From positions 1-35,068 of the IMG/VR virus record IMGVR_UViG_3300044638_008123: a DNA stretch of 35,068 nt. One strand, 5' to 3'. The notes under the pieces were generated by a model that saw only the letters and a list, made by a program, of their open reading frames with translations, made no database searches and was not told the DNA's origin. The translations under genes were made by a program, and so were the position numbers. Positions 19,735 to 31,428 of the stretch are shown here, piece by piece. The number at the start of each line of letters is the position of its first letter. The stretch's first letter is position 1. The stretch comes from a virus.

Positions 19735-20985
19735 ATGAATGAATTAGATCCAGTTTGGAAAATTGCACAAAAGACTCAGGACCCCGAAATTGATGATTTT
19801 ACCCCCAAGGAGCTCATAGATGAGCTAGAATATCATTTTAGAAATCCTGAATCAGGAAGACCCCTGCTAATATGGGGAGCACCTGGAATAGGTAAAACCT
19901 CAATAGTAAAATCTTTTGGACTAGAAAATAAAGAAGTTCCTGTGATCGAGGTTATTCTTAGCCTTATGGAACCGACTGATGTTGTAGGACTTCCAGGAAT
20001 ACTTCCAGACGAGAAAATGCCAGATATAAAAAGATCGGTCAATTATCTTCCTAGAATATGGCCTATTGATAATGGAGATAAAGAAATTATCGACAATGCA
20101 GGAAACAAAACCAAGGTTGAGGGGAAGGGCGGAATAATATTCTTGGACGAGATCAATAGAGCACATCCATCGGTTCAAGCAGCAATGCTTAAAGTTATTT
20201 TTGATCGGGAGATAGCAGGAGCAAATTATAAGATCCCAGATAAATGGCTAATAGTTGCCGCAGCAAATAGACAGGAGGATGAACCAGGTGGATCTATAAA
20301 ACCGATGAGTTTTGCTTTGGCAAATAGATTCGCACAAATTAATCTTATCTCCGATCCATCTAGCTGGGTAGAGTGGGCAAGAAACAGAGATCTCGACGAT
20401 GATGTTGTTTCTTTTGTAGAACTCATGCAAGAATATTTTTACATCTCTCCTGAATCCATATCGACACTCGACACGACAATGGGAGTAACGCCAAGATCCT
20501 GGGATTATGCAGCAAGGGAATACTCCGAAAGAAAAAAAATAGCAAAAGATGAAATTCTATCGGAGAAAGAAATCAATAAGATATTTAATAAGCATGTCGG
20601 CAAAAAAGTATCTTCGATTATAACAGATTTTATAGAAACAACCAAAGTTTGGCCAGTTGAAAGAATCTCTAGAATATTTAGCGATCCTAAAAATTCAGAT
20701 CTATCTCTTCCCGTTTTAGATTCCGGAAATTATGATCTTAGAAAGTCGTATGCTGTAATGTATATGACATCCAAATACAAAAATGGAAAAGTTATATCGA
20801 AAGAAGAATTTATAAATTTTGTTGAATATCTGATAAATCTAGATTCCGGCGAAATAGCGATGAGCGGTTTAAATTTAATTAAAAGAACACACCCAGAGGT
20901 TAAGGATTATCTTAGCGACGTAACCCTGGAAAAAAATATTACTCCTTTCGTATCCAAGTATAGAAATTTCATGAGGGAAGTATAA
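19735..20985 (+). CDS. MoxR-type AAA+ ATPase, module A
   Basis: A 416-aa AAA+ ATPase. I chose the ATG at 19735 (MNELDPVWKIAQKTQDP) rather than the frame start at 19648, because the latter overlaps the divergent gene's start codon and the GATATATA box sits between. Seen: Walker A GAPGIGKT (48-55), Walker B GGIIFLDEINRAHPSVQ, sensor 1 WLIVAAANRQ, arginine-finger region FALANRFAQINL and TPRSWDYAARE near sensor 2. MoxR ATPases normally act with a VWA-domain partner to remodel or activate target proteins; that partner is the next gene (10-nt gap). Paralogous to the gene at 27233. Confidence 0.88.
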   Translation: MNELDPVWKIAQKTQDPEIDDFTPKELIDELEYHFRNPESGRPLLIWGAPGIGKTSIVKSFGLENKEVPVIEVILSLMEPTDVVGLPGILPDEKMPDIKRSVNYLPRIWPIDNGDKEIIDNAGNKTKVEGKGGIIFLDEINRAHPSVQAAMLKVIFDREIAGANYKIPDKWLIVAAANRQEDEPGGSIKPMSFALANRFAQINLISDPSSWVEWARNRDLDDDVVSFVELMQEYFYISPESISTLDTTMGVTPRSWDYAAREYSERKKIAKDEILSEKEINKIFNKHVGKKVSSIITDFIETTKVWPVERISRIFSDPKNSDLSLPVLDSGNYDLRKSYAVMYMTSKYKNGKVISKEEFINFVEYLINLDSGEIAMSGLNLIKRTHPEVKDYLSDVTLEKNITPFVSKYRNFMREV

Positions 20986-20995
20986 TAGCCATTAA

Positions 20996-22405
20996 ATGAA
21001 TATATCGGATAAAGAAAACTACGAAAAATCTGTCATCAAGATAAAAAGATGTGTTTCCAAGATTTTAATGAAGGGAGGATTTTTTGGAAATTTTCTTTCT
21101 GAGATCCCTGTAGCTTCGTCCAATGATTGCCAATTTTTTTCGACGGACGGTACAGCTTTTATATTTAACCCTCTAAATTGTTTGGAGATAAGTGACGAAG
21201 AGATAACATGGTCAATAAATCAGGGAATAATACACCTAGCATTACAACATTTTGATAGAAAGAATGATAATCTATTCCACGAGTGGAATCTGGCCTGTGA
21301 TATAATTTCCCATCAATATCTTGATGGAATTTGTAAATCTTTTCTTCCTAAAGAATACCAAGATTCGAGATTTATAAATGGCTCAGCTGAAGAAATATAT
21401 GATGATATACTCAGTGGTAAAATCCAACAAGTAGTAGAATACAGGTCTTATTGTGACGTTTTAAATCCCGGGGAAATAAATGAAAGCTATATCAACGAGG
21501 TTATAATAGGGGATTTATTAAAATCTGAGGGTTCCTTAGAAGAAAATAAAAAACAGAACTTAGATAAAACAACGAACAAAGAAACCGAGGTTTTGGATTC
21601 CGGCGAAGGTAGTTCGGATAAAAAAGGTTCATCGGATAAAGGATGGGATGATTCTGGTGGTAGTCAAAATAAAAAATTATTCCAGCCTCTGAAAGATAAC
21701 ACATTAAAGAAAAGAGAGGTGACTAGAAAAATAAGGGAAATAACAGAAAGATCGTCTAATAAGGGAACGGGTAATGGCGGAACATCCCCAGCTTTAAGAA
21801 AATTTATAGACAATCTGATGAATCCACAAGTAGATTGGAAAAAAACATTACAAAGATACACCTCAGAGATGGACGAGGATTTTTCTGTGTATAAGATACC
21901 AAACAGGAGACACATCTTTCAAGATCTTTACCTTCCTGGGCTTAAAGGAAGAATGGAGGGTCTTGGTACAATAGTAATAGCAATAGATACCTCAGGAAGT
22001 ATAGGGAAAGAGGAGTACAATGCTTTTATAGAGGAATCTAGAAGCATATTAAAGTGTTTTCTCCCAAAAGAAATATATATTATCTATTGTAGCGATGGGA
22101 TAGAGCCACCTTCTGGTGATATTGACAGGTTAAAATCGCCAGGTCAATTGCTGGATTTGGAAAAACAAAAATCCACTGGAGGAAACGAAGAGGGTTTTAA
22201 TCCCCCAATAAAATGGGTGGAAAATAACCTAATTAAAAAAGGCAAAGATCTAGCATGCATGATATATTTCACGGATGGAGGTGCCGAAGATCCTGAAAAA
22301 CCAAATTGGCACAAAAAAATAATATGGGCAATAACTACTGATCGTAGGATTCCTTTCGGTAAACATATAAATGTTCCGATTAATAAATTAAAATTAAAAA
22401 AATGA
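20996..22405 (+). CDS. VWA-domain protein with degenerate metallopeptidase-like N-domain, module A
   Basis: A 469-aa partner of the MoxR ATPase. The N-terminal region (about 50-150) matches the metallopeptidase-like domain found before VWA domains in DUF2201-type proteins, but the zinc motif is lost: NQGIIHLALQHF (75-86) stands where the paralog has LHEIMHCLGDH. A Ser/Lys/Asp-rich linker follows (about 180-260). The C-terminal VWA domain has MIDAS motif DTSGS (331-335) and a later metal-site segment YFTDGGAED. It therefore looks like a non-catalytic adaptor. The stop overlaps the nuclease start (ATGA, 22402-22405), so the nuclease is translationally coupled. Confidence 0.85.
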   Translation: MNISDKENYEKSVIKIKRCVSKILMKGGFFGNFLSEIPVASSNDCQFFSTDGTAFIFNPLNCLEISDEEITWSINQGIIHLALQHFDRKNDNLFHEWNLACDIISHQYLDGICKSFLPKEYQDSRFINGSAEEIYDDILSGKIQQVVEYRSYCDVLNPGEINESYINEVIIGDLLKSEGSLEENKKQNLDKTTNKETEVLDSGEGSSDKKGSSDKGWDDSGGSQNKKLFQPLKDNTLKKREVTRKIREITERSSNKGTGNGGTSPALRKFIDNLMNPQVDWKKTLQRYTSEMDEDFSVYKIPNRRHIFQDLYLPGLKGRMEGLGTIVIAIDTSGSIGKEEYNAFIEESRSILKCFLPKEIYIIYCSDGIEPPSGDIDRLKSPGQLLDLEKQKSTGGNEEGFNPPIKWVENNLIKKGKDLACMIYFTDGGAEDPEKPNWHKKIIWAITTDRRIPFGKHINVPINKLKLKK

Positions 22406-23004
22406 AGAAATTTCTAACGCTATTATTGATTCTTACACTATCAATTGGATTAAAAGCACAGGATACAGTCAGAATAAAAAACCAGGTTTTTGAAGTACTC
22501 TATTCTCAAAAATTAGAGCAACCTTTATGGATTAAATACAGATCTACTAATAGACCAACTAATGTTAATAGAGGATCAATGGATTTTTACGCAGAGAAAA
22601 CAATTAAAACATCCGATAGCGAGGATTATATAAAGAATGTTTATGACAAAGGGCACGGAGCACCTGCAGCTACATTTTCAGATAACATGGAAAATTTAAA
22701 GCAAACATTTTCTTATCTTAATTGTATAATGCAGAATCAATATTTAAATAGGGGTGAATGGAGAATGCTGGAAGAGCAGATTAGAAAATGGGACGACACC
22801 GAAAATTTAACAGTTTTAATTAAAATATTTTTTGATAGCCCAGTAAAAAGAGTTGCTACTAATGCAGCCATTCCTTCATATCTACAAAAACATATTTATT
22901 TTGAATCTCAGAAAAAATGGAGATGCTTTGTTTTTCTAAACGAGAAACCAAAATTTAAGTGGGATCAATTAGAAATGATTTGCAGTCCAAAGGATCATAA
23001 ATAA
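22402..23004 (+). CDS. Exported DNA/RNA non-specific endonuclease (NUC1/NucA-like)
   Basis: A 200-aa secreted nuclease of the beta-beta-alpha metal family. The signal peptide is MKKFLTLLLILTLSIGLKAQ, with likely cleavage near AQ. The catalytic motif is YDKGHGAPAATF (81-92; family DRGH, general base H85). FSYLNCIMQNQYLNRGEWRM (103-122) carries the conserved metal-binding Asn (family N..PQ..N...W..LE). It is short for the family but holds the whole core. It would act in the periplasm or outside, for instance degrading incoming DNA of competing phage or host DNA at lysis. It ends the MoxR-VWA operon, with a bidirectional terminator 30 nt later. Confidence 0.85.
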   Translation: MKKFLTLLLILTLSIGLKAQDTVRIKNQVFEVLYSQKLEQPLWIKYRSTNRPTNVNRGSMDFYAEKTIKTSDSEDYIKNVYDKGHGAPAATFSDNMENLKQTFSYLNCIMQNQYLNRGEWRMLEEQIRKWDDTENLTVLIKIFFDSPVKRVATNAAIPSYLQKHIYFESQKKWRCFVFLNEKPKFKWDQLEMICSPKDHK

Positions 23005-25899: not shown

Positions 25900-26508
25900 A
25901 TGAAGCACGTTTCAATATATGAAAATTTCGGGGTTAATTCACCATCTGTAATTGATTTTTTCGATCTCACATTTACGTTGGTTCTTCATAATAGAACCAT
26001 TATAAAAGGACTAATACAGAACGAGGGTGCGGTGAAAGAACTATTCAGTGATAATCAGCAATATAAATTGATTGATAGCTGCTATCCATTCCAAACCAGG
26101 TACACACTAGATGATAGTGAGATTAAAAGAGCGGAGTGTGCTGAAAAAAATATACGAGAGTATATCGGAAATAAACTAGAGGATCTTGAGTGCGAGATCA
26201 TATATTACCGACCTATGTATATTTACAGAAGGATGGCATATGATCCCATTAGAATTTTTGCACCAGGAGCTAGGAGGGATTCAGGAAAAGAATTTAGCAT
26301 GGAAGCAAAATTTTATAGCAAGAATGATGAAGAAGGTATCAAAAAAATGCCAGAGATTATCGCAAAAGCTAAAGAATTTGCTTCTAAATATGGTGTTTCC
26401 CACGTTCTCCCTCATGGGCCAAATTTAGTTAGTAATCCGTTACGCAAAGAATATGATAAGCATTTCACCCCCCTCGAAAATTTTGAATGGGAAAAATATT
26501 ATTGGTAA
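25900..26508 (+). CDS. Hypothetical 202-aa protein
   Basis: Not recognised. It starts MKHVSIYENFGVNSPSVIDF, loosely like the short N-terminal peptides of the module B proteins. The rest is mixed alpha/beta (ECEIIYYRPMYIYRRMAYDP; KKMPEIIAKAKEFASKYGVS) and ends aromatic (FEWEKYYW). No signal peptide or membrane segment. It is a single plus-strand gene between minus-strand genes, with its own promoter-like box, running up to 5 nt before the tRNA-Gln end. Confidence 0.65.
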   Translation: MKHVSIYENFGVNSPSVIDFFDLTFTLVLHNRTIIKGLIQNEGAVKELFSDNQQYKLIDSCYPFQTRYTLDDSEIKRAECAEKNIREYIGNKLEDLECEIIYYRPMYIYRRMAYDPIRIFAPGARRDSGKEFSMEAKFYSKNDEEGIKKMPEIIAKAKEFASKYGVSHVLPHGPNLVSNPLRKEYDKHFTPLENFEWEKYYW

Positions 26509-26513
26509 TTCTG

Positions 26514-26584
26514 ATGCCCGATTAGGATTCGAACCTAAACTAACTCCGTCAAAGGGAGTTGTGCTACCGTTACACCATCGGGCA
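26514..26584 (-). tRNA. tRNA-Gln (anticodon TTG)
   Basis: Acceptor TGCCCGA/TCGGGCA, anticodon loop CTTTGAC in stem ACTCC/GGAGT, T-loop TTCGAAT. Discriminator T followed by CAG. Confidence 0.93.
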
Positions 26585-26591
26585 ATTTTAG

Positions 26592-26673
26592 TGGGAGCAG
26601 CAGGACTCGAACCTGCGAACTCGAAAGAGGAGTGATTTACAGTCACTTGTCATTGCCGCTAGACGATGCTCCC
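26592..26673 (-). tRNA. tRNA-Tyr (anticodon GTA)
   Basis: Acceptor GGGAGCA/TGCTCCC, anticodon loop CTGTAAA, long variable arm (CCTCTTTCGAG, class II), T-loop TTCGAGT, discriminator A followed by CTA. The only tRNA here without C-A or CCA after the discriminator. Confidence 0.93.
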
Positions 26674-26681
26674 AATTTTTG

Positions 26682-26753
26682 TACTCCCAACGGGATTCGA
26701 ACCCGTGCTACATCCGTGAAAGGGATGTGACCTAACCACTAGTCGATAGGAGC
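26682..26753 (-). tRNA. tRNA-Glu (anticodon TTC)
   Basis: Acceptor GCTCCTA/TGGGAGT with two wobble pairs, anticodon loop CTTTCAC in stem CATCC/GGATG, T-loop TTCGAAT. Discriminator A followed by CAA. Confidence 0.93.
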
Positions 26754-26759
26754 ATTTTG

Positions 26760-26831
26760 CGGGGATGGAAGGGTTCGAACCTACGACCTAGTCATTAACA
26801 GTGACCCGCTCTACCACTGAGCTACATCCCC
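26760..26831 (-). tRNA. tRNA-Asn (anticodon GTT)
   Basis: Acceptor GGGGATG/CATCCCC, anticodon loop CTGTTAA in stem GTCA/TGAC, T-loop TTCGAAC. Discriminator G followed by CAA. Confidence 0.94.
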
Positions 26832-26839
26832 AATTTCTG

Positions 26840-26910
26840 AGTCGACTACAGGATTCGAACCTGTGTGAGAGGTTTTGCAGACCCCTACCTATCCTCTCGG
26901 CCAAATCGAC
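26840..26910 (-). tRNA. tRNA-Cys (anticodon GCA)
   Basis: Acceptor GTCGATT/AGTCGAC, anticodon loop CTGCAAA in stem GGGGT/ACCTC, T-loop TTCGAAT. Discriminator T (typical for Cys) followed by CAG. Confidence 0.94.
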
Positions 26911-26920
26911 ATCAAATAAA

Positions 26921-26949
26921 AAACCCAGACCTTATTAAGATCTGGGTTT
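26921..26949 (-). terminator. Terminator after the 28-aa mini-gene
   Basis: Stem AAACCCAGA and AAG paired with CTT and TCTGGGTTT (one internal mismatch), loop of 3 nt, followed by TTTTTT on the minus strand. It lies between the mini-gene and tRNA-Cys and shares the CCCAGA/TCTGGG stem with the terminator at 23034. Confidence 0.8.
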
Positions 26950-26971
26950 AAAAAATATATTTAAAAAAATG

Positions 26972-27058
26972 TTAAACCAGATCCGTGCGCATATAATCCA
27001 TCTCATTGCCTTGTTCAGACATTTGATAGCAATTATTATATGTGCTCTGATTTACCAT
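26972..27058 (-). CDS. 28-aa mini-gene candidate
   Basis: An ATG at 27058 opens a 28-codon frame (begins MVNQSTYNNCYQMSEQ) ending in TAA at 26972. A GATATATA box lies 18 nt upstream and a strong terminator begins about 23 nt downstream, so it looks like a complete single-gene unit. The product is polar, with one Cys and four Met, and has no hydrophobic segment. It could instead be part of a small non-coding RNA. Function unknown. The stretch from here to 27232 otherwise holds only promoter-like boxes. Confidence 0.45.
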   Translation of the reverse strand: MVNQSTYNNCYQMSEQGNEMDYMRTDLV

Positions 27059-27076
27059 TTTTGATTGATTGAATGT

Positions 27077-27102
27077 TATATATCTTTTTTGAGGTTTGTT
27101 TC
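27077..27102 (-). promoter_or_regulatory. Promoter-like element: GAAACAAACC, 8 nt, GATATATA (mini-gene)
   Basis: Minus strand GAAACAAACC (27093-27102) and GATATATA (27077-27084), with the same 8-nt spacing as the element before the lipoprotein gene at 15092-15117. Confidence 0.55.
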
Positions 27103-27206
27103 ATAATCATTATAATTAATTAGCAGGTTAAGACATTGGGTCTTCCTGAATTTTTATGGATTTTTAGATTTTCTCATCTTTTATAAAGATAGGTCGAATT
27201 TACTTA

Positions 27207-27214
27207 GATATATA
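27207..27214 (+). promoter_or_regulatory. GATATATA box before module B operon
   Basis: Reads TTAGATATATAAATCAAAA, 18 nt before the MoxR ATG at 27233. The stretch GATATATAAATCAAAA is identical to the one before the 30-aa mini-gene (34120-34135, minus). Confidence 0.5.
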
Positions 27215-27232
27215 AATCAAAAAAGATAAAAA

Positions 27233-28774
27233 ATGAGAAGAGTTTCCAATTTTGAGACCTTTATCAAAGATAGACAACAGGTAAACAGAAACACTGTTAA
27301 CGAAGGTGTATTTTCTTGGATTAAAGATAACGTCATCGACAAACTAACCGGATGGGCAAAGTCATTCTATGACAAGCTAACAAATGGGGGTATTCCTAAA
27401 ATACCGGCAGGTAAACCATATGCAGGTAAACCATCCGTTATGTTATATTTGCCAGAAATGGGTCCAATCGATAAACAAATAGAAGAAGTTCACGGATCAC
27501 AGGGAATGACAGAAGCTGTTGTACCTTTAGAGTATCCCAACCAAAAGGAAGGAGTGGTAGACGTAAACACTGAAGAACTAAAAACCATGGTTAGGGATCT
27601 TTATATGTTAAAAAATACGGGTGAAATTGCAACCCCTATTTTTATTTACGGAGCACCCGGAATTGGTAAGACCCAAATCGTTGGTGCAGTAGCATATGAA
27701 TTAGGTATTCCTCTAATGGACTTTAAAAATCTTGATGTTCAATTTATGAACCCTGAGGATTTTTCAGGGGTACCAAGTCAACACAATATCGAAGAACCAA
27801 CTTTTCAAGATATGGAAATGGAAGGTCCAGAGGGAAATGCAATAAAGAAAAGAGTAATGACCTCACAAGGAAAGGGATTTACGAGATTCAATCCCCCTGC
27901 AAACCTACCAACAGATAACGGAAAAGAAGGAAAGGGCGGATTTATTTTCCTTGATGAAATGAACAGAGCGGATAAAAACGTCTTAAATAAATTGATGCAA
28001 TTCGTTCAAATGGGTAGACTCCCTGATTATCAGCTTCCTGATAAATGGGTTATTGTAGCAGCAGGTAACAGAGCGATTGAAGCAGATGTTGCAGATTTTG
28101 ATTTTGCATTAGCAAACAGATTCGAGGTAGTTAACTTCGTTCCTAAGGTAGAAGAATGGACCGACTGGGCATCTAAAAACGAAAGGATTTTACCAGAATT
28201 AGTATCTTTCTTAATCGATAATAAACAACTTTTCCATAAATTAGATACTGATAACGAATCCAAAACTTTTCCAACGCCAAGATCATGGACGGGCGGAGCG
28301 GAAAAACTGGCTGGTATAATTAAAATTAGAGGACTTCAAAGCTGGAAAGATATACCAAGTAAAGATATCCTACAAATTTTTAGACTTCGCGTTGGACCAG
28401 AGGCAGCAGGAGCTTTTAATTCATATCTGGATGTTTTAAGAAATATCTCGGAAAGAGATCTTGAGACCATGATGAACAATCCATCCGCAGCAATTAAAAT
28501 ACCAGGAGTGGAAAAAAACAAAAGTGTTTTAAGAGCGGTTAGTGAAATGGCCCTTAAGAAGGTTAAAACGTATGATGCACAAACACTTTATAACATTATG
28601 GAGTATTTTTCACAATACGGACAGGCAGAAATGTTGAGCTGGTTATTAAAATCAATATACAAAAACTTCCCAGAAGCTCAAGCTGGTGTAACTGATAATA
28701 GCAATCCTGATCATCAAATATTAAATAAAATGGCAGAGATAGCTACAAAGTCAGCACATTCTACAATAAGATAA
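27233..28774 (+). CDS. MoxR-type AAA+ ATPase, module B
   Basis: A 513-aa AAA+ ATPase, paralog of the one at 19735 but with about 110 extra N-terminal residues. Seen: Walker A GAPGIGKT (140-147), Walker B GGFIFLDEMNRAD (DE 241-242), sensor 1 WVIVAAGNRA, FALANRFEVVNF and TPRSWTGGAEKL. The N-terminus has NFETFIKD, then NTVNE (20-24), like the starts of the next two genes and like T4 capsid-targeting peptides (F..FI....(V/I)NE). The residues after it (GVFSWIKDNVIDKLTGWAKS) could be an amphipathic helix. It is the first gene of a four-gene plus-strand operon. Confidence 0.88.
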   Translation: MRRVSNFETFIKDRQQVNRNTVNEGVFSWIKDNVIDKLTGWAKSFYDKLTNGGIPKIPAGKPYAGKPSVMLYLPEMGPIDKQIEEVHGSQGMTEAVVPLEYPNQKEGVVDVNTEELKTMVRDLYMLKNTGEIATPIFIYGAPGIGKTQIVGAVAYELGIPLMDFKNLDVQFMNPEDFSGVPSQHNIEEPTFQDMEMEGPEGNAIKKRVMTSQGKGFTRFNPPANLPTDNGKEGKGGFIFLDEMNRADKNVLNKLMQFVQMGRLPDYQLPDKWVIVAAGNRAIEADVADFDFALANRFEVVNFVPKVEEWTDWASKNERILPELVSFLIDNKQLFHKLDTDNESKTFPTPRSWTGGAEKLAGIIKIRGLQSWKDIPSKDILQIFRLRVGPEAAGAFNSYLDVLRNISERDLETMMNNPSAAIKIPGVEKNKSVLRAVSEMALKKVKTYDAQTLYNIMEYFSQYGQAEMLSWLLKSIYKNFPEAQAGVTDNSNPDHQILNKMAEIATKSAHSTIR

Positions 28775-28784
28775 TTAGATAATA

Positions 28785-29693
28785 ATGGGTAAATTTATAA
28801 AATACGGATCTTTTAGGTCTTTTATTAAATCAATAAATGAAAATACAGATTCAGTTGAGGATGATCTTGGGTATAATCCTGTTGAAATTATTAGAAGAAT
28901 AAACAAAGCAATACTTTGGACTAATATTAACGACGTAGGTAGAGATTATGCAGATGGATTAGCAAAGGTTGACATATATGGATCTGATGCAATTAGACCT
29001 AAAACAATGTGTACGGATGGAACTAGAATCATATTTCACCCAGAATTCGTGGCTTCCCAAAGCGATGAAGCGATTAGATTAGTTTTGCTACATGAAATAA
29101 TGCACTGTCTTGGCGATCATATGACAAGAAGACAAGAAAGGAATCCACTAATCTGGAATTGGGCTTGTGATTATGCCATCAACCCTATCTTGGATGGGGA
29201 AAAGGGTCTTGAATGGCCAAAAAATGAGGATGGATCCAGAATGGGTCTTCTAGAACCAAAATATGCGGGGATGAGAGCAGAAGACATCTATGAGATAATC
29301 AAAGATATGCCACCACCAAAGAATGAACAAGATCTTGGAAATGTCGTAGATCACGGATCCCCATTACCTGACCCGGATCCAGGCTTGGAAGTACAGGTAA
29401 CACCAGATGATGAGGAAGATGAATATGATGATACGTCAGATGGATCCGAAGAAGACAATAATGGTGAGAACGGTGAAGATGGTGAAACGGGGGGTGGGGG
29501 ATCTAAAGTTCATCAAGCTCAAGTTGGAGATCTTATTAAAAGTAAGGACGGAAGATATGGAAAGATAACATCCATCAATTCTGACGGAACTCATGATATA
29601 GATGAAATGACAGAAGAAGAAGTAAAGATGGAAAGAGCAGCATCCTCTGGTAGATCTAATCTTTCTGATTTAGCGGATGTTAACGAGATATAA
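28785..29693 (+). CDS. Metallopeptidase-like protein (HEIMH), module B
   Basis: A 302-aa counterpart of the N-terminal half of the 469-aa module A protein, as a separate gene. The zinc motif is intact: LLHEIMHCLGDHM (H103, E104, H107, third ligand perhaps H112), followed by IWNWACDYAINPILDG, which matches WNLACDIISHQYLDG in the paralog. It begins with KYGSFRSFIKSINE (6-19), a short peptide like those of its neighbours. The C-terminal third is acidic and Gly/Asn-rich, then an SH3/KOW-like patch (VGDLIKSKDGRYGKITSINS). The gene starts 10 nt after the MoxR gene. Whether it cleaves anything is unknown. Confidence 0.8.
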   Translation: MGKFIKYGSFRSFIKSINENTDSVEDDLGYNPVEIIRRINKAILWTNINDVGRDYADGLAKVDIYGSDAIRPKTMCTDGTRIIFHPEFVASQSDEAIRLVLLHEIMHCLGDHMTRRQERNPLIWNWACDYAINPILDGEKGLEWPKNEDGSRMGLLEPKYAGMRAEDIYEIIKDMPPPKNEQDLGNVVDHGSPLPDPDPGLEVQVTPDDEEDEYDDTSDGSEEDNNGENGEDGETGGGGSKVHQAQVGDLIKSKDGRYGKITSINSDGTHDIDEMTEEEVKMERAASSGRSNLSDLADVNEI

Positions 29694-29704
29694 TAATCAA
29701 AAGC

Positions 29705-30064
29705 ATGAACAAAATATTTTCATTCGGTGAATTTTCAAAATCAAAAGGAGTAAACGAAAGCACTATGGGTCAAATGTCTTTAAAAAGAAATGAATTTGAT
29801 GTTATAGTAGATCCACAGGGAGGCGGAGAAGGCGGAGGAGGTGAAACTACTACAGGTGTAACCGAAGGTCCTGGGGAAAAGCCATTACCAGGCTTAGGTG
29901 AAAAAAGACCATTACCAGGTTTACCAGGAGAAAAACCAGGAGACGAAGATGGAGATAAAACTCCACCACCTTCATTACCAAACGTTGGTGATAGAGTAAT
30001 ACTATCTGACGGGACAGAAACCACAATCAAAAGAGTACTTCCTAATGGTGACATAGAAGTTTAA
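29705..30064 (+). CDS. Pro/Gly-rich linker protein with SH3-like tail, module B
   Basis: A 119-aa protein. The N-terminus IFSFGEFSKSKGVNEST (4-20) resembles the starts of the two genes before it. The middle is low-complexity Gly/Pro/Glu with repeated PLPGL. The C-terminal 27 residues (PNVGDRVILSDGTETTIKRV) repeat the SH3/KOW-like pattern at the end of the 302-aa protein. It may tether or space the other components. It sits 11 nt after and 16 nt before its neighbours. No homologue recognised. Confidence 0.65.
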   Translation: MNKIFSFGEFSKSKGVNESTMGQMSLKRNEFDVIVDPQGGGEGGGGETTTGVTEGPGEKPLPGLGEKRPLPGLPGEKPGDEDGDKTPPPSLPNVGDRVILSDGTETTIKRVLPNGDIEV

Positions 30065-30080
30065 TACTAAAACACAGAAA

Positions 30081-31037
30081 ATGCTAGTAAAATTAGGACA
30101 ATATACATTAATAGATCCAAATTCCATAACTCAAAATCCACAGGGTAAAGGCGATGCACCAGGTGGCGGCGGAAAATCAAAATTTACGGAGGATCCAACT
30201 CAGATGAGCGACATTCCGATGGTTGGACAAGAAAAACCCGGTATTAGCACACAAAGGAGTGTAACTGACAAAACTGGATCAGTAAAGAATAAAGCAACGG
30301 AATACACTAAGGGTGGTAAGTCTATAATCTATAAAGGAAAAAAAGCACTGCCTGATTGGAAATCTATTGCAGCAAAAGCCATAGGAAATTCTAATAATAG
30401 CAAATTTAAAGAAATGGTAAGAAGGCTAGCCGCCTCTGAACCGCTTGTTAACTGGAAAAGAGAATTAAAGAAATTCTTCGACAGTGCATTTAAGGCTAAG
30501 GATACTGTGTTACCAAATAGAAGATTCGTTGCTGGAGGAAAATATCTATATGGTCAAAAGCCTATAGGTAAAGATACCCTTAGAACAATCGTAGCTGCTA
30601 TTGATACCTCATCCTCTATTTCACAAAAGCAATCTAATACGTTTGTTAAAGAAGTAATGTATCTTTGCAAGCAGTATGATGCTGAGGTAACTTACATCAT
30701 TTATTGTAGTGATGATATTGATAATGTTGATATAGTTAAAAAAGGGAAGACCCCGGATCTTTCAAAATGGGCATCCACTTTCGGTAATGCTAAAGGATTT
30801 ATTCCTCCGTTTGAATTTGTTGATGGCGCTCATAAAAAAAATATTCTAAAGACTAAAATTGATCCTTCAATATTTATTTATTTAACAGATACAGGTGGGG
30901 AAATGCCAGATCCTAGAAAGCATGGTATACCGAAATACGCAAAGAAAACTTTCTGGTTTATCTGCTCACCCCAGATGTATAATAAACCACCTTTTGGAAA
31001 GATCCTGTTTGCACCGATCTCTGCTATTAAAGAGTAA
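30081..31037 (+). CDS. VWA-domain protein, module B
   Basis: A 318-aa protein matching the C-terminal half of the 469-aa module A protein: SEPLVNWKRELKKFF parallels MNPQVDWKKTLQRY, and VLPNRRF parallels KIPNRRH. MIDAS motif DTSSS (175-179), then TYIIYCSDDID and IYLTDTGGEMPDP (later MIDAS Asp). The N-terminal 80 residues are Gly-rich and disordered-looking, with no (V/I)NE peptide. It would bind the MoxR ATPase and a client protein through the metal site. Last gene of the operon; a bidirectional terminator follows after about 40 nt. Confidence 0.85.
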   Translation: MLVKLGQYTLIDPNSITQNPQGKGDAPGGGGKSKFTEDPTQMSDIPMVGQEKPGISTQRSVTDKTGSVKNKATEYTKGGKSIIYKGKKALPDWKSIAAKAIGNSNNSKFKEMVRRLAASEPLVNWKRELKKFFDSAFKAKDTVLPNRRFVAGGKYLYGQKPIGKDTLRTIVAAIDTSSSISQKQSNTFVKEVMYLCKQYDAEVTYIIYCSDDIDNVDIVKKGKTPDLSKWASTFGNAKGFIPPFEFVDGAHKKNILKTKIDPSIFIYLTDTGGEMPDPRKHGIPKYAKKTFWFICSPQMYNKPPFGKILFAPISAIKE

Positions 31038-31078
31038 CATTACCTCATTAAACCGTTCACTACTCCATCCAAATAAAG

Positions 31079-31100
31079 AACCCATAGTAGTATATGGGTT
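31079..31100. terminator. Bidirectional terminator between convergent genes
   Basis: Perfect 8-bp stem AACCCATA/TATGGGTT with a 6-nt loop, between the plus-strand module B operon and the minus-strand membrane protein gene. T-tails are short. Confidence 0.7.
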
Positions 31101-31116
31101 TAAATAATAAGTTCGT

Positions 31117-31428
31117 TTAAGAGATCCAAATGTGCAGATAATAAGCTAATTTATAGCCAGCAAAAGCCCCAAGTGCAGAGGGAATAGGAAACACTATCAT
31201 TTTACCAAGAGAAGTAACATACTTGGGCCTGTTGACTATTTTACCCATGAAAAAATAATAAGCAAGATATCCAGAAAGAACTGCTAAATCCATTCTTGTT
31301 GAAATAAAGACCACTAGGGTTGCACCAAGAAATCCAAAAATAAAATTATCTCTAACTCCCTCGTATACCTCATACTTTGAGGCATCTTTATATTCCTTGA
31401 TTATTTTTTTAAATTTGCCTCTATTCAT
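31117..31428 (-). CDS. Small membrane protein, 103 aa
   Basis: Not recognised. The basic, soluble-looking start (MNRGKFKKIIKEYKDASKYE) is followed by three likely membrane segments: FIFGFLGATLVVFIS (about 29-44), LAVLSGYLAYYFFMG (about 48-62) and MIVFPIPSALGAFAGYKLAY (about 77-96). It could be a holin, a superinfection or envelope protein, or none of these. A holin is possible by size and topology, but no lysis gene is nearby to support it. GATATAAATT lies upstream at 31446-31455 (minus). Confidence 0.6.
   Translation of the reverse strand: MNRGKFKKIIKEYKDASKYEVYEGVRDNFIFGFLGATLVVFISTRMDLAVLSGYLAYYFFMGKIVNRPKYVTSLGKMIVFPIPSALGAFAGYKLAYYLHIWIS

Follow-up and report, generated by a model that had tools for sequence, protein, structure and literature searches.

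The closest described counterpart of the peptides reported here is the capsid-targeting sequence of phage T4, where unrelated cargo proteins (IPI–IPIII and Alt) carry an amino-terminal peptide that ends in an [LIV]xE motif and is cut by the prohead protease gp21. IPII and IPIII begin with MKTYQEFIAEA and IPI with MKTFKEF, which served as our controls. In IPIII the protein is directed to the core by its aromatic residues 4 and 7 and processing is controlled by residues 8 and 10, where an Asp at position 10 stops cutting but still allows targeting (PMC9026906). In SPN3US and phiKZ, internal head proteins likewise lose amino-terminal propeptides to a prohead protease cutting after xxE, although these phages belong to another lineage, several of their propeptides exceed 100 residues, and AxE and SxE sites are used (PMC5694885). 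MoxR–vWA pairs with an N-terminal metallopeptidase are, in turn, known from group 2.2 jumbo phages, and a role in virion assembly has been proposed for them (PMC7824862). In the literature searched, we found no description of capsid tags on phage MoxR–metallopeptidase modules.

We analyzed a viral record of 35,068 nucleotides (termed the window), which encodes a terminase (PF03237), a neck protein weakly matching gp14, 15 tRNA genes and, on inspection of the translations, gp46/gp47-like and UvsX-like proteins, and which is from a T4-type phage. For comparison we used G001, a 219 kb IMG/VR contig with a terminase 89% identical to that of the window and a gene order common to both, as well as LR756500, a more distant relative phage of 462 kb that was read in stretches. 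For gp21 and gp23, whose genes are not in the window, we turned to G001, which encodes an S77 (gp21) protease, so that a close relative of the window provides the type of prohead protease that processes the T4 tags.

Module B of the window comprises four genes on the plus strand, which encode a MoxR AAA+ ATPase (27233..28774, 513 aa; PF07728, 30 bits versus a cut-off of 22; phrog_1297, 1e-47), a DUF2201_N zinc-metallopeptidase-like protein (28785..29693, 302 aa; PF13203, 7e-21), a Pro/Gly-rich protein (29705..30064) and a VWA-like (DUF2201) partner with a DxSxS motif (DTSSS; 30081..31037; PF09967, 6e-11). The translations confirm the original prediction that the first three, here regarded as tagged precursors, begin with an aromatic N-terminal peptide ending in (V/I)NE at residues 24, 19 and 18, respectively. 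With a slash for the predicted cut point, these peptides read MRRVSNFETFIKDRQQVNRNTVNE24/GVF for MoxR (27233..27304), MGKFIKYGSFRSFIKSINE19/NTD for the metallopeptidase (28785..28841) and MNKIFSFGEFSKSKGVNE18/STM for the Pro/Gly-rich protein (29705..29758), where the tag is followed by a low-complexity linker and a small carboxy-terminal VGDxVxLSDG..PNGDIEV domain. The VWA protein starts with MLVKLGQYTLIDPN.. and is devoid of such a peptide. A candidate further cargo protein is encoded upstream of the module (25900..26508, plus strand); it starts with MKHVSIYENFGVN without a clear cleavage site, and its G001 orthologue with MRHLTIYESFYGIS.

The three peptides share aromatic pairs spaced by two residues (F7/F10 in MoxR, Y7/F10 and F10/F13 in the metallopeptidase, F7/F10 in the Pro/Gly-rich protein) followed by a site of the [LI]xE type, TVNE24, SINE19 and GVNE18, if Val is accepted for Leu or Ile. 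They thereby match the register of the T4 sequence (YxxF[I]xE), namely an aromatic residue, two further residues, a second aromatic residue and then often [ILV]-x-E, and resemble the T4 tags in their length of 10–24 residues and in being attached to unrelated cargo. They differ from T4 in that the aromatic pair lies about three residues further in and that MoxR contains an additional site around residue 94; where T4 packages small basic inhibitors or an ADP-ribosyltransferase, the cargo here would be a MoxR ATPase and a zinc peptidase. In the window MoxR, FETFIKD has an Asp (D13) at the processing position where T4 has a Glu, followed by TVNE24, and orthologues show FVNES..VSE/GLFSW and YVNES..MVNE/GLFSW in the same region. 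D13 together with this orthologue pattern indicates that TVNE24, and not the immediate T4-like site, is probably used.

To assess how unusual the peptides are, we compared N-termini with internal segments. In the window, an aromatic pair with NE occurred in 3 of 36 N-termini and 5 of 264 internal segments (p=0.03), and patterns pairing aromatic residues with a downstream Glu gave p values from 0.03 to 0.1. The anchored pattern M-x(1-3)-[ILVM]-xx-[FYW]-xx-[FYW] matched 3 of 36 N-termini, compared with 0.8% of internal positions (p=0.003); the matches are the proteins starting at 25900, 27233 and 29705, whereas 28785 misses because of a Phe instead of I/L/V/M at the first position. With p values of about 0.003–0.1, the window alone is weak evidence for tags. 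As the regular expressions were composed after the finding was known, the weight rests on independent genomes, where the anchored pattern was found in 14 of 217 proteins of G001 (p=1e-8), 40 of 556 of LR756500 (p=6e-27) and 5 of 53 of G003 (p=2e-4), against about 0.7–1% at internal positions and 1 of 138 in unrelated control contigs (p=0.7). About 35 proteins of LR756500, its peptidase–VWA protein included, begin with MKYIxEYExF[LI]xE or near it, and its MoxR starts with MSFKNFTQYSEHI. The peptide sits on unrelated proteins in the relatives, among them proteins with CHAP, NTP_transf_2 and PAP2 domains, and of 1004 proteins encoded near gp21 loci, 24 have an N-terminal copy of its strict core, some 22-fold more than expected. 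The tags of the window diverge from this; none of the three fits the strict core, and in MoxR an Asp occupies the processing position of T4.

A de novo motif search of the LR756500 N-termini yielded KYIkEYEeFlnE with a log-likelihood of 409, compared with at most 207 in five shuffles. Since the carboxy-terminal control of this search reached 387 with a different motif, we rely on the anchored counts and not on the de novo motif. The same type of search did not recover the tag motif from the G001 N-termini, and the LR756500 profile was too specific for the window tags (28785, p=0.06; 25900, p=0.0005).

The MoxR orthologues, 43–52% identical to the window protein and starting for example with GKKIYNFDDFVNESYVSEGLFSW and KKRIFNFQDYVNESYMVNEGLFSW, allowed the peptide to be followed residue by residue. 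F10 is conserved in 21 of 26 aligned sequences; position 24 is occupied in 22 of them, with a Glu in 21. Ahead of Walker A, the sole invariant residue is E94 (26 of 26); its P3 position is L, I, V or M in all but one of the sequences (25 of 26), and the next residue is A, G, S, D or E. An AlphaFold2 model of MoxR gave pLDDT values of about 42–62 for residues 1–100 and of at least 84 from 101 to about 160, placing E94 at the border of the AAA+ core with the low-confidence N-terminus; residues 7–20 of the peptide were modelled as a helix, with low confidence. The invariance of E94 and its position at this border point to a propeptide of about 94 residues that would be cut at 24 and 94, its predicted remainder comprising residues 25–94 (27305..27514, plus strand) and ending in GMTE94/AVVPLEYP. 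MoxR is thus probably also cut at 94, with a mature start near A95 rather than G25. Walker A lies no earlier than residue 114 in all 30 tagged MoxR sequences; in the 14 short sequences, none of which is tagged, it lies at residue 83 or before. The MoxR proteins of loci L153, L155–L158, L164 and L166 have a long extension with another N-terminus, often MxKLVxESIxE...LNE/G, possibly a head-targeting peptide of another type.

MoxR retains intact Walker A and B motifs (GAPGIGKT and FLDEMNRA), and the best Foldseek matches of its model were NorQ and CbbQ, at low TM-scores (about 0.3, full-model normalised). NorQ and CbbQ both work with a VWA partner (NorD and CbbO); in contrast to the module proposed as phage cargo, these systems are cellular, unpackaged and lack a metallopeptidase partner. 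The metallopeptidase motif HExxHxxxxH is present in 18 of 18 aligned sequences and reads HEIMHCLGDH in the window. As in the group 2.2 jumbo phage pairs, MoxR adjoins a DUF2201-type metallopeptidase and VWA domains, although in module B peptidase and VWA are separate genes, and of these just the peptidase is tagged. The carboxy-terminus of the Pro/Gly-rich protein resembles that of the metallopeptidase of locus L127, so that it may have arisen from such a part by splitting or duplication, with a tag of its own. The original prediction also counted the VWA protein as a part of the packaged machine, and here it needs amending: separately encoded VWA proteins are never tagged, neither in the window nor in 14 of 14 other orthologues with an intact start, and fused peptidase–VWA proteins are mostly tagged at their common N-terminus. 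The separate VWA protein would therefore either ride along with its partner or be made in the cell.

If the tags are processed like those of T4, the major capsid protein should be cut at a similar motif, as the original prediction had also expected. G001 gp23 and about 43 other distinct N-termini near gp21 homologues share HSLNE/SAGAY, a junction matching the tag motif that falls where T4 gp23 has its propeptide, with the cut site read from the alignment. In G001 (128801–130042, locus L037) and at loci L047–L126, gp21 and a scaffold domain built of 14-residue tandem repeats form one fusion protein. The 62 distinct fusion sequences mostly contain 12–15 repeats of YxEYLAEN[LV]D with the core YxEYLAE, at a density of 19.8 core hits per 1000 residues versus 0.076 elsewhere. 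The huge phages LR745206, LR756504, LR756502 and LR756501 have 11–14 such scaffold cores, and PA5oct has none. Scaffold repeats and tag share the same short core; the full repeat profile did not pick out the window tags (p 0.09–0.6), so that mimicry of the scaffold is just a suggestion from this core. The AlphaFold model of the fusion was unusable (pLDDT 37).

Module A of the window, a second MoxR (MoxR-A, 19735..20985, probable start ATG 19735) and a peptidase–VWA fusion (20996..22405), both on the plus strand, lacks the peptide, as claimed. Window MoxR-A (MNELDPVWK..) aligns with a G001 MoxR that has an extra tagged N-terminus, MKRIKGFQEFNRLNE..SIKE/SDDPSWK, and window peptidase A (MNISDKENYEK..) with the tagged G001 peptidase A, MRKIRNFAEYGILLEN/SSSYGISEQDYERAV. 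Both window proteins begin almost exactly at the predicted cut points of their tagged orthologues, which suggests that the propeptides were lost. The tree places window MoxR-A as sister to the G001 A copy (100/100) within a mostly tagged group, and locus L147, nested within a tagged clade, provides a second paired absence, with neither MoxR nor peptidase tagged. In a neighbouring tagged protein of loci L013 and L015 the tags differ and likeness resumes right after NE (..NKVNE/DAGYGNDYF and ..YTMNE/EAGYGNDYF). The zinc motif of peptidase A is degenerate in the window (HLALQH) and in G001 (HLALDH), while the MoxR-A and VWA-A motifs are kept. Directly behind module A (22402–23004) lies a DNA/RNA non-specific endonuclease (PF01223), 88% identical in G001, whose start resembles a signal peptide.

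Taken together, capsid targeting followed by trimming through a gp21-type protease is the best reading of the tags, and we consider it likely from these comparisons; it is well supported by the T4 register, the conservation among orthologues, the gain and loss of tags as units, the gp23 junction of the relatives and the gp21 of G001. T4-style packaging and trimming, as originally predicted, thus stands by comparison for the MoxR, metallopeptidase and Pro/Gly-rich tags, but the untagged VWA protein and the second MoxR site at 94 depart from it. In AT-rich, Lys/Phe/Asn-rich proteins three short N-termini could resemble each other by chance, which would be compatible with the weak window-only statistics; the independent genomes, the orthologue conservation and the control contigs make this exceedingly improbable. 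The peptides could also be docking helices that join MoxR and the metallopeptidase, or attach them to another phage structure, in the cell. The helix modelled with low confidence for residues 7–20 of MoxR and the observation that both partners are tagged, and can be tagless together, would suit such a role, yet a docking helix is hard to reconcile with a peptide found on dozens of unrelated proteins, ending in a prohead protease motif and missing from the VWA partner, and we judge this explanation very unlikely.

An alternative that retains targeting and trimming has the machine remodel or degrade scaffold or head proteins inside the prohead without being injected. Iyer et al. assigned MoxR–vWA–metallopeptidase pairs to virion assembly and peptidolytic processing (PMC7824862), the tag would place the machine correctly for this task, and trimming could activate it. 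The functional diversity of the tagged proteins (CHAP, NTP_transf_2, PAP2) nevertheless fits cargo better, and the untagged copies of window module A and L147 would not reach the prohead via tags, leaving this role unlikely, though less so than docking. Under the preferred reading of packaging as cargo, the aromatic pair would dock the precursors of the MoxR, metallopeptidase and Pro/Gly-rich proteins in the scaffold core of the prohead, and the gp21-type protease would cut after (V/I/L)xE at head maturation, in MoxR also at [LIVM]xE94. These cuts would release a NorQ/CbbQ-like MoxR ATPase and its zinc-peptidase partner inside the capsid. Both would be carried in the virion and would probably pass into the next host along with the DNA, as a ready-made remodelling and peptidase machine. 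Of these steps, we infer packaging and cleavage of the tagged proteins from sequence; injection and action in the host are tentative, at most evenly balanced. The full scenario, in which large T4-like phages deliver a MoxR–metallopeptidase machine with the DNA by a tag mimicking a scaffold repeat, host targets are remodelled or cleaved ahead of phage gene expression and the untagged copy of the window's phage acts intracellularly, is possible but rather doubtful.

Association of MoxR with virions is on record outside this lineage. The PA5oct MoxR is annotated as detected in virions by ESI-MS/MS although it is tagless, and a MoxR relative was represented by one peptide in a virion sample of Staphylococcus phage DC4, which its authors treated with caution (PMC10638138). 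Virion association as seen in these preparations hence needs no such tag, and the tagless PA5oct MoxR, considered as a virion-absent negative control, failed as such owing to this annotation. The MoxR proteins of three cultured phages, Pseudomonas phage 30-3 (PA5oct type), Vibrio phage phiKT1024 and cyanophage S-TIM54, start 24–35 residues before Walker A and, unlike window module B, have neither tag nor propeptide. PADLOC returned weak AAA-domain matches only, giving no reason to call the module a defence system, and a single-protein scan of viral contigs gave no matches.

In T4-like huge phages, most genes of which are without known function, the peptides offer a sequence-only route to list candidate head-packaged proteins of uncultivated members. 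They place the MoxR–peptidase module, so far proposed as an assembly factor, among proteins likely carried in the virion, and, as tagged and untagged copies occur in pairs, what packaging contributes can be tested directly. Should delivery prove true, the enzymes that phages bring into the cell, such as polymerases and ADP-ribosyltransferases, would come to include AAA+ remodelling machines.

The slot of module B (window 26510–31100) corresponds to G001 60870–64486, where other tagged genes are found (61255, 62492 with a CHAP domain, and 63322), and it appears to be a site where tagged cargo is exchanged. Next to it, on the minus strand (31117–31428), the window encodes a 103 aa protein starting with MNRGKFKKIIKEYKDASKYEVYEGVRDN, 76% identical to G001 60559, with an aromatic-rich start, a VYE/G-like site and apparent hydrophobic segments.
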